Source: Pseudomonas brassicacearum (lineage in GTDB: Bacteria; Pseudomonadota; Gammaproteobacteria; Pseudomonadales; Pseudomonadaceae). From it: DNA of 64,000 bases. This document shows, in pieces, positions 971 to 4,381 of the stretch. Made by a program: the position numbers and the translations under genes. The stretch covers positions 2,356,001 through 2,420,000 of the forward strand of contig NZ_CP045701.2 in the NCBI RefSeq assembly GCF_009601685.2, read 5' to 3'. The notes under the pieces are model-generated. The model was not told where the DNA came from, ran no database searches, and was given only the letters and a program-made list of their open reading frames with translations. The number at the start of each line of letters is the position of its first letter. Positions within the stretch are counted from its first letter, which is position 1.

Positions 971-1972
971 ATGACCCACACCCCCCATTTCCCGCTCTGC
1001 GCCGTGGTCGGCGCCGATGACCTGAAACTGGCCCTGTGCCTGGCCGCGATCGATCCGAAAATCGGCGGTGTGCTGATCGAAGGGCCGCGGGGCATGGCCA
1101 AGTCCACCCTGGCCCGGGGCTTGGCGGACCTGCTGGCCAGCGGTCAGTTCGTCACCTTGCCCCTCGGTGCTACCGAAGAGCGGCTGGTGGGCACCCTGGA
1201 CCTGGACGCGGCCCTGGGGCAAGGGCGCGCGCAGTTTTCTCCCGGCGTGCTGGCCAAGGCCGACGGTGGCGTGTTGTACGTCGATGAAGTGAACCTGCTG
1301 CCCGATCATTTGGTGGACTTGCTGCTCGATGTGGCTGCCAGCGGCACCAACCTGATCGAGCGCGACGGCATTTCCCATCGGCATCCGGCGCGCTTTGTGC
1401 TGATCGGCACCATGAACCCGGAAGAGGGTGAGCTGCGCCCGCAGTTGCTCGACCGTTTCGGCCTCAACGTCGCCCTCGACGGTCACACTGCACCGGCTGA
1501 ACGCGCTCAGATCATCCGGCGGCGGCTGGATTTCGACAGCGATCCGCTGGTGTTCTGCGCAGCGTGGGAGACGGCCCAGCAGCAGTTGCGCGAACGTTGC
1601 CAACAGGCACGCGACCGCTTGGCCGGGATCGCCCTGGACGATGCGGCGCTGGCGCAGATCACCGAGCGCTGCTTTGCCGCCGGGGTCGATGGCTTGCGCG
1701 CCGACCTGGTCTGGCTGCGGGCGGCCCGGGCCCATGCGGCTTGGCGCGGGGCTGCTGCGATTGCCGATGAAGACATCGATGCGGTCGCCGAGTTTGCCTT
1801 GCGGCACCGGCGGCATGGGCATTCGACACCGGCACCGTCCCAGGCGCCGCAAACGCCCGCCAATGGAGCGACCCAGCCCAACGAAGGCCAGGGCCAGTGG
1901 GGCGACCTGCCGGCCCGGGCATTGCCGACCGGTGCCCGGCGTGACGTGCCGAGCTGGCCAAAAAAGCCTTAG
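971..1972 (+). CDS. chlI: AAA+ chelatase small subunit (ChlI/BchI-like), zero-frame product
   Basis: A 333-residue AAA+ ATPase related to the small subunit of magnesium chelatase. Residues about 30-50 carry the Walker A region GPRGMAKST, residues about 96-107 the Walker B region GGVLYVDEVNLL, and about 140-160 the conserved GTMNPEEGELRPQLLDRFG segment. The tail from about residue 285 is rich in Pro, Gln and Thr, as in the linker of ChlD proteins. Lying beside cobN, it most likely powers cobalt insertion rather than chlorophyll synthesis, since bacteria without CobS/CobT use ChlI/ChlD-like partners (inference from context). Its TAG stop (1970-1972) lies just after an A AAA AAG heptamer, and the -1 frame stays open to 2631 as a VWA domain, so this ORF is probably the short product of a frameshifting gene. 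Confidence 0.9.
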   Translation: MTHTPHFPLCAVVGADDLKLALCLAAIDPKIGGVLIEGPRGMAKSTLARGLADLLASGQFVTLPLGATEERLVGTLDLDAALGQGRAQFSPGVLAKADGGVLYVDEVNLLPDHLVDLLLDVAASGTNLIERDGISHRHPARFVLIGTMNPEEGELRPQLLDRFGLNVALDGHTAPAERAQIIRRRLDFDSDPLVFCAAWETAQQQLRERCQQARDRLAGIALDDAALAQITERCFAAGVDGLRADLVWLRAARAHAAWRGAAAIADEDIDAVAEFALRHRRHGHSTPAPSQAPQTPANGATQPNEGQGQWGDLPARALPTGARRDVPSWPKKP

Positions 1973-2631
1973 GCATTCGCCCCCGTTCGCCGGCGGGGGC
2001 GAATGCCAGACCCCGTGCCGGACGACTCGACCAGGGCCGCCAGGGCCGCAGCAAAGCGGCGGCCAGCGGTGCGGTGAACTGGCCGGGGACATTGCTCAAT
2101 GGCCGACCACGTCTGCGTGAGGACCTGCGCTTTCATGGGCGCCATCGCTCGCCCCATGAGCTGTGGCTGGTCATCGTCGATGCGTCGGCCTCGACCCGTC
2201 GTCATCGCGCCTTGAGTGACGGCAAGGGCTTGCTGGCGCAGCTGTTCGACGACGCCTACCGCCAACGCGCCCGCCTGGCACTGTTGAGGGCCAGCGGCAC
2301 TGTCCCGAATTGGCAGGTGCAAGGGCTCAAGGCCTCGGCCGGCTTGCGCGACTGGCTCGACGGCCTGGGCGCCGGTGGCGGTACACCGTTGCTGGCGGCG
2401 CTGGAGGAGGCCGGGCGCTGGCTGGTGGCCCGGCGCAAGCGTTACCCGGCGGAGCAGCAGCGGGTCTTGGTGATGACCGATGGACGAGTCAAGGAGGGGC
2501 TTTCACCGCCGTTTCTCGATTGTCCGTGCCTGCTGATCGACATTGAAAGAGGTCCGATCCGCCTGGGGCGGGCCCGGCAGTTGGCGGGGCGGTTGGGGGC
2601 GGAGTATCGGCATATTGATCAAATCACTTGA
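971..2631 (+). CDS. chlD: ChlI-ChlD fusion (AAA+ plus VWA) made by -1 frameshift at 1960-1966
   Basis: Reading zero-frame to 1966 and then frame -1 from 1966 to the TGA at 2631 gives about 553 residues: AAA+ domain, Pro/Gln-rich linker, basic linker and a von Willebrand A domain. The VWA part has a complete MIDAS set: DASAS (about 2188-2202), the Thr of GGGTPLL (about 2374-2394) and the Asp of VMTDG (about 2470-2484). The -1 frame contains no stop from 1771 to 2631 and codes sensible protein right through the join, including residues such as GRSKAAASGAVNWPGTLLNG before the first ATG of that frame (2101, too late to include the domain start). No well-placed ribosome site for an independent VWA gene was seen. 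Making both chelatase subunits from one frameshifting chlD gene has been reported for bacterial and archaeal cobaltochelatases. Not tested here; the alternative is a separate GTG/TTG-started gene. Confidence 0.75.
1960..2007 (+). promoter_or_regulatory. -1 programmed ribosomal frameshift signal: slippery heptamer plus hairpin
   Basis: The heptamer A AAA AAG (1960-1966) is in the correct phase for the chlI frame, its two Lys codons being 1961-1966. A 5-base spacer (1967-1971) contains most of the zero-frame stop. It is followed by a perfect 13-bp stem, GGCATTCGCCCCC (1972-1984) paired with GGGGGCGAATGCC (1995-2007), around a 10-base loop. Heptamer, spacer length and stem match the layout of the E. 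coli dnaX frameshift site. No clear upstream Shine-Dalgarno-like stimulator was seen. Confidence 0.85.
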
Positions 2632-2734: not shown

Positions 2735-3727
2735 ATGCGCGTACTCGTCACCAACGCCCAGGACGATTTTCGGGTCAAGGCCTATGCCGGCACCAACGGC
2801 GTGCTGCTCGCCATGGACCTGGCTGAATCCCGGCGCAAGGGTCTGCTGGGCTTTGCCATCGAGAAGCAGCACAGTGACAGGCCCTGGCTGTTCCTGTTCA
2901 ACAGTCTGACCTTCCCCGACAAGGCCCACACCTTTCCTCAGTTCCACGCCACCCCCAGCGACAAGGCACCCTTGCAGAAATTTCGCTGGGCCGACTACGC
3001 AGTCAACCCCGGCGTGACGATTCGCTACCGTGTGCACCTGGCCTATGGCAGCCCCGATGCACCGCAGTTGGGCGACTTCCTGGAGGTCACCGTCACCAGC
3101 GACGACGGGCAGCCGGCCAACCAGCAGGTCATCTTCAATCGGGCGGTGGCCGCCAGCCAGGCGTTCCAGCGCAAGTTTCCTGAAGTGGATGCCTTGATCA
3201 GCGCCAACAAAAAACTGTCCATCGAAGCCTGGCCCGACGCCCCGCGTCGTTGGCTGGAAAATGGCTTGTTGGGACGCTTGACCGGCTTCATCGACCGGGC
3301 GCTGGATGCCAGTTGGGCCCTGGATGTCGCCATCTATGAATACGAACTGCCGGTGATCGTCGAGGCGGTCAACGCCGCTCATGCTCGCGGGGCACAGGTT
3401 CGAGTGCTGTACCACGCCGAACCAGGAGACGACACCACCCAACGCAACGAAGCCAACCTCCAAGCACTGCCGGCCGCCAACAAACGCGGGCGGGTCACCC
3501 ACAACATTTTCCACGACAAGTTCATCGTGCTGAGCAAGGTTGATGGCGGCGGTGCGCTACAACCTGAGGCTGTGCTGTGCGGCAGCACCAACTTCACCGC
3601 CAACGGCGTCTACCGCCAAGCCAACGTCGTTCATGTGCTGGATGACCCACAGGTGAGCGACAGCTACCGCCAAGTGTTCGAGCAGATCTGGGCCGCACCG
3701 CAGAACGTCGATACCATTCGCCAGTGA
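2735..3727 (+). CDS. Phospholipase-D-like protein, first HKD half
   Basis: 330 residues whose C-terminal half is a PLD-type HKD domain: HDKFIVLSK at about residue 255 gives the H-x-K, and GSTNFTANG at about 290 is the usual glycine-serine-asparagine follow-up. Residues 1-150 do not match a fold I can name; they carry no signal peptide. PLD-superfamily enzymes act as HKD pairs, and the next gene supplies the second HKD motif. Both genes are in the same reading frame and only a TGA (3725-3727) plus six codons separate them from the ATG at 3746. The start is preceded by ACAGGAGTGAACC, a good ribosome site. Could be phospholipase, cardiolipin synthase-like or nuclease-like; substrate unknown. Confidence 0.8.
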   Translation: MRVLVTNAQDDFRVKAYAGTNGVLLAMDLAESRRKGLLGFAIEKQHSDRPWLFLFNSLTFPDKAHTFPQFHATPSDKAPLQKFRWADYAVNPGVTIRYRVHLAYGSPDAPQLGDFLEVTVTSDDGQPANQQVIFNRAVAASQAFQRKFPEVDALISANKKLSIEAWPDAPRRWLENGLLGRLTGFIDRALDASWALDVAIYEYELPVIVEAVNAAHARGAQVRVLYHAEPGDDTTQRNEANLQALPAANKRGRVTHNIFHDKFIVLSKVDGGGALQPEAVLCGSTNFTANGVYRQANVVHVLDDPQVSDSYRQVFEQIWAAPQNVDTIRQ

Positions 3728-3745: not shown

Positions 3746-4381
3746 ATGGCACCGAAGAAGGCGCTGTTTACCGGATTCTCGCCACGCACCGGCGAGGGCG
3801 ACCTGGACCGCTTCGTCGACATCATCAAGGGCGCGCGAAAGGACCTGTTGTTCGTCACCGCATTCGTCTTGCCCGAGCGCATTCTCGACGCCGTGCTTGG
3901 CCAGCCCAATGACGACGTGTTGCGCTATGGCCTGCAAAACACCAAGAGCCGCATCACCGGCTTTCACGCCGACCGTACTGCCGAATTCGCCGCCACCGCC
4001 TTGCTCAACACCGGCCTGGAAGGCTGGCTCAAGGAAAACATGAAAGGCCAGAAGGGCAACCTGCTGGTGCACACCAAAGCCATCGTCACCGACTTCACCA
4101 GCGACACACCGACCATCCTCAGCGGCAGCCACAACCTGAGCGCCGCGGCCAGCAATGGCAACGACGAGAACTACCTGATCATCCAGGGCGACACCGACCT
4201 GGCCGACCGCTACGGGCTGGAACTGCTGCGTTTCTATGAGCATTACCGCTTTCGCTACTTCGCGAAAAAACTCGCCCTCAAGCAGGTCAAGCCACTGGCG
4301 GTGGATGACAGCTGGAGTGATGACTATTACCGCGAGGGGGATTTGCGGATGTTGTCCAGGGTGAGGTTTTGCGGGCGTTAG
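3746..4381 (+). CDS. Phospholipase-D-like protein, second HKD half
   Basis: 211 residues in the same frame as the preceding PLD gene. The HKD motif is HTKAIVTDF at about residue 110, followed by GSHNLSAAASNGNDEN, the usual arrangement of the second catalytic half in bitopic PLD enzymes. The stretch before the ATG (3728-3745) has only a weak ribosome site and translates without a stop, as if a former linker. Likely explanations are one ancestral two-HKD protein interrupted by a TGA, or two subunits that pair. It is predicted soluble, with no signal peptide. Confidence 0.75.
   Translation: MAPKKALFTGFSPRTGEGDLDRFVDIIKGARKDLLFVTAFVLPERILDAVLGQPNDDVLRYGLQNTKSRITGFHADRTAEFAATALLNTGLEGWLKENMKGQKGNLLVHTKAIVTDFTSDTPTILSGSHNLSAAASNGNDENYLIIQGDTDLADRYGLELLRFYEHYRFRYFAKKLALKQVKPLAVDDSWSDDYYREGDLRMLSRVRFCGR

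Follow-up and report, generated by a model that had tools for sequence, protein, structure and literature searches.

The fs-chlD gene of Pseudomonas brassicacearum lies at 971-2631 of the window (the whole 64,000-nt stretch of DNA that was analysed, to which all positions refer), on the forward strand and directly 3′ of cobN, whose product is the large subunit of the aerobic cobalt chelatase. The C-terminal part of CobN is encoded at 1-747 of the same strand (PF02514, E 3.7e-100; TIGR02257, E 2e-113); its whole open frame begins before the window, comprises 1258 aa and was found in the genome at G000:C1:2353385-2356696. The zero frame of fs-chlD (971-1972, forward strand) encodes a 333-aa ChlI-type AAA+ protein with matches to PF07728, PF17863 and PF01078, to the BchI/ChlI structures 6l8d, 8osf and 1g8p and, in its best stretch, to positions 88-327 of the 641-position cobaltochelatase model TIGR02442. 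Where a Walker A motif is expected, this protein has GPRGMAKS, in which A precedes K; the usual form has G before K. The −1 frame (1945-2631, forward strand), which after a slip would supply a linker and a ChlD-type VWA domain (PF13519, E 2.9e-6), is open from 1945, five codons upstream of the slippery heptamer, runs for 221 further codons after the slip and stops at 2629-2631. This half matches TIGR02442 at positions 459-641 of 641 as well as BchD of structure 2x31 (E 2.6e-7), and the single TIGR02442 model spans both frames in order. The VWA half also carries DASAS, GGGTP and TDG, which we take to be as in a MIDAS site. Both halves thus have their likeness in the magnesium chelatase subunits BchI/BchD and ChlI/ChlD; those are encoded by two separate genes, whereas fs-chlD is one gene and adjoins cobN rather than chlH. 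Between cobN and the ChlI frame there is an inverted repeat at 836-944 whose arms, 836-870 and 910-944, are 71% complementary; its core of 14 nt (858-871 and 917-930) pairs perfectly, and the element presumably resembles a dispersed intergenic repeat. Two same-strand neighbours farther downstream, 2735-3727 and 3746-4381, contain one PLD-like domain each.

The ChlI frame ends in CCA AAA AAG CCT TAG, which places the slippery heptamer A_AAA_AAG (1960-1966, forward strand) in phase with it, just where the AAA+ frame ends and the VWA domain continues in the −1 frame, as the original prediction had stated from the letters. The zero-frame stop TAG (1970-1972) follows one codon past the heptamer. 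The predicted 5-base spacer is CCTTA at 1967-1971, and behind it folding places a stem-loop, the likely stimulator, with arms at 1972-1987 and 1992-2007 and a loop at 1988-1991. This stem had been described as perfect and 13 bp long; its strength stood up, and its length had to be corrected slightly upward, to 14 Watson-Crick pairs plus 2 G-U pairs. The segment 1950-2020 has a minimum free energy of -36.5 kcal/mol (z -3.34), with only 1 of 200 dinucleotide shuffles equally stable, and the 60 nt downstream of the heptamer fold at -35.5 kcal/mol, compared with -20.3 at the next best of the 19 A6A/A6G sites in the window (both strands, overlapping sites counted apart). A pattern search for tRNA-Lys genes returned two, both UUU, and no CUU tRNA-Lys with up to 3 mismatches allowed, a limit at which a divergent CUU tRNA could escape.

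A strong G+C-rich inverted repeat right at the ChlI stop might also be read as a transcription terminator that would cut the transcript short behind the ChlI frame. No T run lies 3′ of the second arm, where AGACCCCGTG comes next, and the VWA coding frame continues through the stem in 135 of 140 Pseudomonas loci; we consider a terminator extremely unlikely, and it was rejected for want of a T run.

The arrangement resembles that of E. coli dnaX, where A_AAA_AAG, a spacer of about 5 nt and a hairpin direct a −1 slip that gives two AAA+ products. The claim that the sites match the dnaX layout held for the in-phase A_AAA_AAG, for the spacing and for the hairpin about 5 nt downstream, but not in two respects. 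The SD-like element that dnaX carries some 10 nt 5′ of its heptamer was not found in fs-chlD: the anti-SD duplex scored -2.2 both here and as the median of the relatives, against a median of -1.8 at control positions, in a test run on the distinct sequences of the relatives. An SD-like upstream stimulator was rejected because anti-SD pairing is no better than at control positions. Moreover, slippage yields the short product in dnaX, whereas in fs-chlD it would yield the long one.

The AAA+ half is present in 374 of 398 genomes of the genus (E 1e-30), of which 140 were examined at the slip site, namely the window's own genome, the best 29 others and 110 hand-picked ones, 79 of which were included because they scored low or had frames of unusual length; the remaining 234 genomes with an AAA+ match lie outside the site-level count. 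A check of the heptamer across Pseudomonas, proposed along with the original prediction, came out in its favour: AAAAAAG exactly 10 nt before the zero-frame stop, with VWA in the −1 frame, was found in 135 of the 140 loci, from as many genomes, the stop being TAG, TGA or TAA in 88, 44 and 3 of them. The other five comprise two contig ends and three loci whose AAA+ frame breaks off or shifts upstream of the slip site, be it through natural loss or assembly error (L109 in G164, L113 in G080 and L114 in G034). L109 retains the heptamer downstream, L113 reads AGAAAAG and L114 shows none; the heptamer is thus missing in L113 and L114, yet in both the AAA+ frame itself is broken. Loss of the heptamer together with two independently started genes, the outcome named beforehand as contrary to a programmed frameshift, was looked for in the 140 loci and is absent from them. 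A blastn search of 1900-2100 against a plasmid collection gave no match.

Codon usage at the two heptamer Lys residues was counted without a heptamer filter in the 134 of the 140 genus loci that align at both residues. AAA was found in 132 of 134 and AAG in 133 of 134, the exceptions being L113 (GAA AAG, the broken gene) and L121 (an alignment offset, with the heptamer present). No other of the 196 conserved columns is so uniform in its codon as these two (100% of 132 and 99.3% of 134); at the two other conserved Lys columns the commonest codon accounts for 53% and 75%. In the heptamer-selected loci of 132 genomes, a partly circular sample, the two Lys codons are the only ones of 206 columns without synonymous variation. 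These genus-wide numbers make a very strong case for selection on the slip site. That the break is an accident, a decayed gene or a sequencing error, has in its favour the frame break as such and the three of 140 genus loci (L109, L113 and L114) that look broken or shifted; since 135 of the 140 loci, each in a different genome, are interrupted at the very same base and both halves are retained as protein families, we regard this explanation as virtually negligible. The shared break is the ground on which the pseudogene reading was rejected.

Slippage might occur during transcription rather than on the ribosome, so that RNA polymerase slipping on the A6 run yields the long product, which we judge highly improbable. 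There is a run of six A at the site, but that is short for RNA polymerase slippage; the codon in which the run gives way to G reads AAG at 133 of the 134 loci aligned (the exception, L121, being the alignment offset with its heptamer kept), and a helix is kept close downstream of the run, matching the expectation for ribosomal slippage. On the other side, the runs of published relatives reach 11 A in the examples given by Antonov et al. (PMC3711429).

To assess the stem, 164 distinct 60-mers were pooled, restricted to members with the heptamer and the −1 relation, from the 140 genus loci and from a second set consisting of the best 80 matches listed, which shares genomes with the first. The stem, like the heptamer, proved conserved on the Pseudomonas-wide check: an 8-bp helix, set off from the heptamer by 3-8 bases, was complete in 146 of the 164 sequences as against 14.8% of synonymous shuffles, where the helix register was picked for best pairing, so that pair counts lean upward, with the shuffles treated alike. 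The median stability z against synonymous shuffles was -1.31, compared with +0.23 in 492 control windows further along the frame. The stem appears weak in some lineages, since only 44 of the 164 sequences have z below -2 and 25 have z of 0 or above. In 159 sequences, again only those with heptamer and −1 relation and with a register likewise picked for best pairing, the pairs 7-12 bases past the heptamer are kept in 157-159, and several of them show more than one Watson-Crick type; a tree-aware covariation analysis of the same 159 found no tested pair significant, with too few independent events. As judged from predicted pairing, the long stem is a trait of the window's nearer relatives, and the shorter helix is that of most genus loci read.

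The same sequences bear on the reading that fs-chlD is two separate genes, the VWA half being translated from its own start, GTG 2074, coupled to the ChlI stop. GTG 2074 is indeed the first ATG, GTG or TTG of the −1 frame and lies upstream of the VWA domain. The equivalent position could be placed in 131 of the 164 sequences, where it is GTG in 36 and ATC in 67, and 31 of the 164 lack any ATG, GTG or TTG within the opening 50 codons of the −1 frame. A separate VWA start would also leave the near-frozen heptamer unexplained, and we find it very unlikely. The internal start was rejected because its start codon is not conserved. The programmed −1 frameshift joining the ChlI part to the ChlD VWA part is, by contrast with these alternatives, a well supported reading of the sequence, and the conservation agrees here with what has been published for the Pseudomonas gene in the parts of three papers that deal with it (PMC3711429, PMC5009743, PMC9227772).

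We sought CobN in 30 genus genomes carrying fs-chlD and in 20 of the 24 lacking it. All 30 carriers gave a CobN match, which exceeds the cut-off in 29 and is divided between two contig pieces in the other (G162), while the 20 genomes without fs-chlD comprised 12 with no CobN, seven with a distant CobN-like protein and one with a match above the cut-off. This distribution across the 50 tested genomes indicates that fs-chlD goes with CobN. The single CobN above the cut-off without fs-chlD, in G273, is on a small contig. The distant CobN-like proteins (G060, G082, G180, G185, G242, G260 and G317; 1408-1491 aa, below the TIGR02257 cut-off) are perhaps, from their sequences, another chelatase-like enzyme.

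As in the CobNST aerobic cobaltochelatase, a cobN gene is at hand, adjoining fs-chlD; the difference is that profile searches of the P. brassicacearum genome gave no match to CobT and none to CobS above the cut-off (best 27.7 bits against 558.55). No second gene resembling the AAA+ half was detected in this genome at E 1e-30. One further strong PF01078 match (314.6 bits) is in a 526-aa frame that is probably YifB. In 21 Pseudomonas-type genomes, no CobS match exceeded 123 bits. Presence of cobN without a separate small-subunit gene is described in the literature as an enrichment in fs-chlD genomes and not as a rule, and the P. brassicacearum genome fits it, with cobN present and a separate small-subunit gene absent. 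In P. aeruginosa, cobN is reported to be required for aerobic B12 synthesis (PMC5962746).

Among the best 80 matches listed, 62 carry the heptamer 10 nt ahead of the stop, with VWA in the −1 frame, one (L173) has the heptamer directly before the stop and three Burkholderiales have A_AAA_AAA; nine are unbroken in frame 0, L228 is unreadable owing to masked bases, L213 has the heptamer on a contig that ends soon after, and three are contig ends. The nine unbroken ChlI-VWA open reading frames among the matches listed (L216, L217, L219, L220, L221, L223, L224, L226 and L229) belong to Neptuniibacter, Motiliproteus, Marinomonas, Psychromonas and MAGs, all outside Pseudomonas. CobN is present in six of these nine genomes (G398, G400, G401, G402, G403 and G407), in two pieces in G401, and in these same six other TIGR02030 matches reach at most 34 bits and CobS at most 36 bits, with no CobT, absences that are uncertain where the genomes are draft or metagenome assemblies. 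The other three (G399, G404 and G405) have CobS-like and CobT-like genes below the curated cut-offs, and no CobN was found in G404. Two of the three frameshifted Burkholderiales among the matches listed, both Caballeronia, also have CobS-like (526-538 bits) and CobT-like (252-261 bits) matches, likewise below the curated cut-offs. In ten relatives that show no evident frame break, a search for an early stop as in dnaX turned up only scattered A or T runs, none of them conserved.

Since six relatives have CobN and an unbroken ChlI-VWA with no small subunit found, the short product may not be needed and ChlI-VWA alone may work with CobN; these six suggest that a genetically encoded pair of lengths is not a universal trait. 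The frameshift could then serve to meter how much full-length ChlD is made, not to supply a missing small subunit, with the short product a by-product or regulator, which we consider possible but rather improbable. Relatives that encode ChlI-VWA in one frame and show no separate small subunit offer a natural comparison on the need for the short product.

We instead consider it very likely that fs-chlD belongs to the aerobic B12 pathway and that a −1 slip on A_AAA_AAG, aided by the hairpin, gives ChlI-VWA beside the ChlI-like protein, both acting with CobN. Normal decoding would stop at 1970 and release the 333-aa ChlI-like AAA+ protein. Both Lys codons on A_AAA_AAG should be able to re-pair one base back, and a fraction of the ribosomes, aided by the hairpin just downstream, would slip by −1 and continue in that frame to make ChlI-VWA, a protein of some 553 aa that would be the ChlD-like medium subunit. 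Both products would join CobN in cobalt insertion, the role of CobS and CobT presumably being taken over by the two fs-chlD products. We infer that both are made in this P. brassicacearum strain, in a ratio that frameshift efficiency may set, and that they work jointly with CobN.

The locus presents a clean case of recoding, in the cobalt insertion step of aerobic B12 synthesis, that gene annotation splits in two. Antonov reportedly treated the fs-chlD frameshift cluster in 2020 (Mol Biol Evol). What we found in P. brassicacearum, a ChlI-like AAA+ part followed by a ChlD VWA part in the −1 frame, a conserved A_AAA_AAR site and a downstream structure as predicted stimulator, places the gene in that cluster. 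The frameshift in fs-chlD of Pseudomonas is already known and was described in 2013: PMC3711429, PMC5009743 and PMC9227772 cover fs-chlD in Pseudomonas, and the statement in the original prediction that frameshifting chlD genes had been described was confirmed by the same sources. Antonov et al. (PMC3711429) list Pseudomonas among the six genera of a −1 'magnesium chelatase' cluster whose members are annotated as two adjacent genes; for three members tested in E. coli, frameshifting was 63% with 11 A, 40% with 9 A and 10% with 7 A. The gene, the genus, the −1 direction, the A_AAA_AAR site and the two-adjacent-gene annotation are common to that cluster and to our locus, whereas the P. brassicacearum sequence itself differs and its site is G-ended, the measured 2013 cassettes being given, in the section that lists them, as A_AAA_AAA or longer runs and not as A_AAA_AAG (PMC3711429). 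The A_AAA_AAR slip site is stated elsewhere to be under strong purifying selection (PMC5009743), and the P. protegens stem printed in that paper, for which triplex formation and divalent cation binding are suggested, is very like the P. brassicacearum stem. In Kuznetsov et al. (PMC9227772), P. aeruginosa is listed among the genomes that have fs-chlD and is assigned to stage 8.

One genus locus departs from the usual arrangement at the other end of the gene. In L044 (G176, G176:C1:2217545-2222287), CobN and ChlI form a natural fusion, encoded without an intervening stop in one open frame of 1582 aa with the heptamer retained, from whose sequence a slip would yield a CobN-ChlI-VWA protein.
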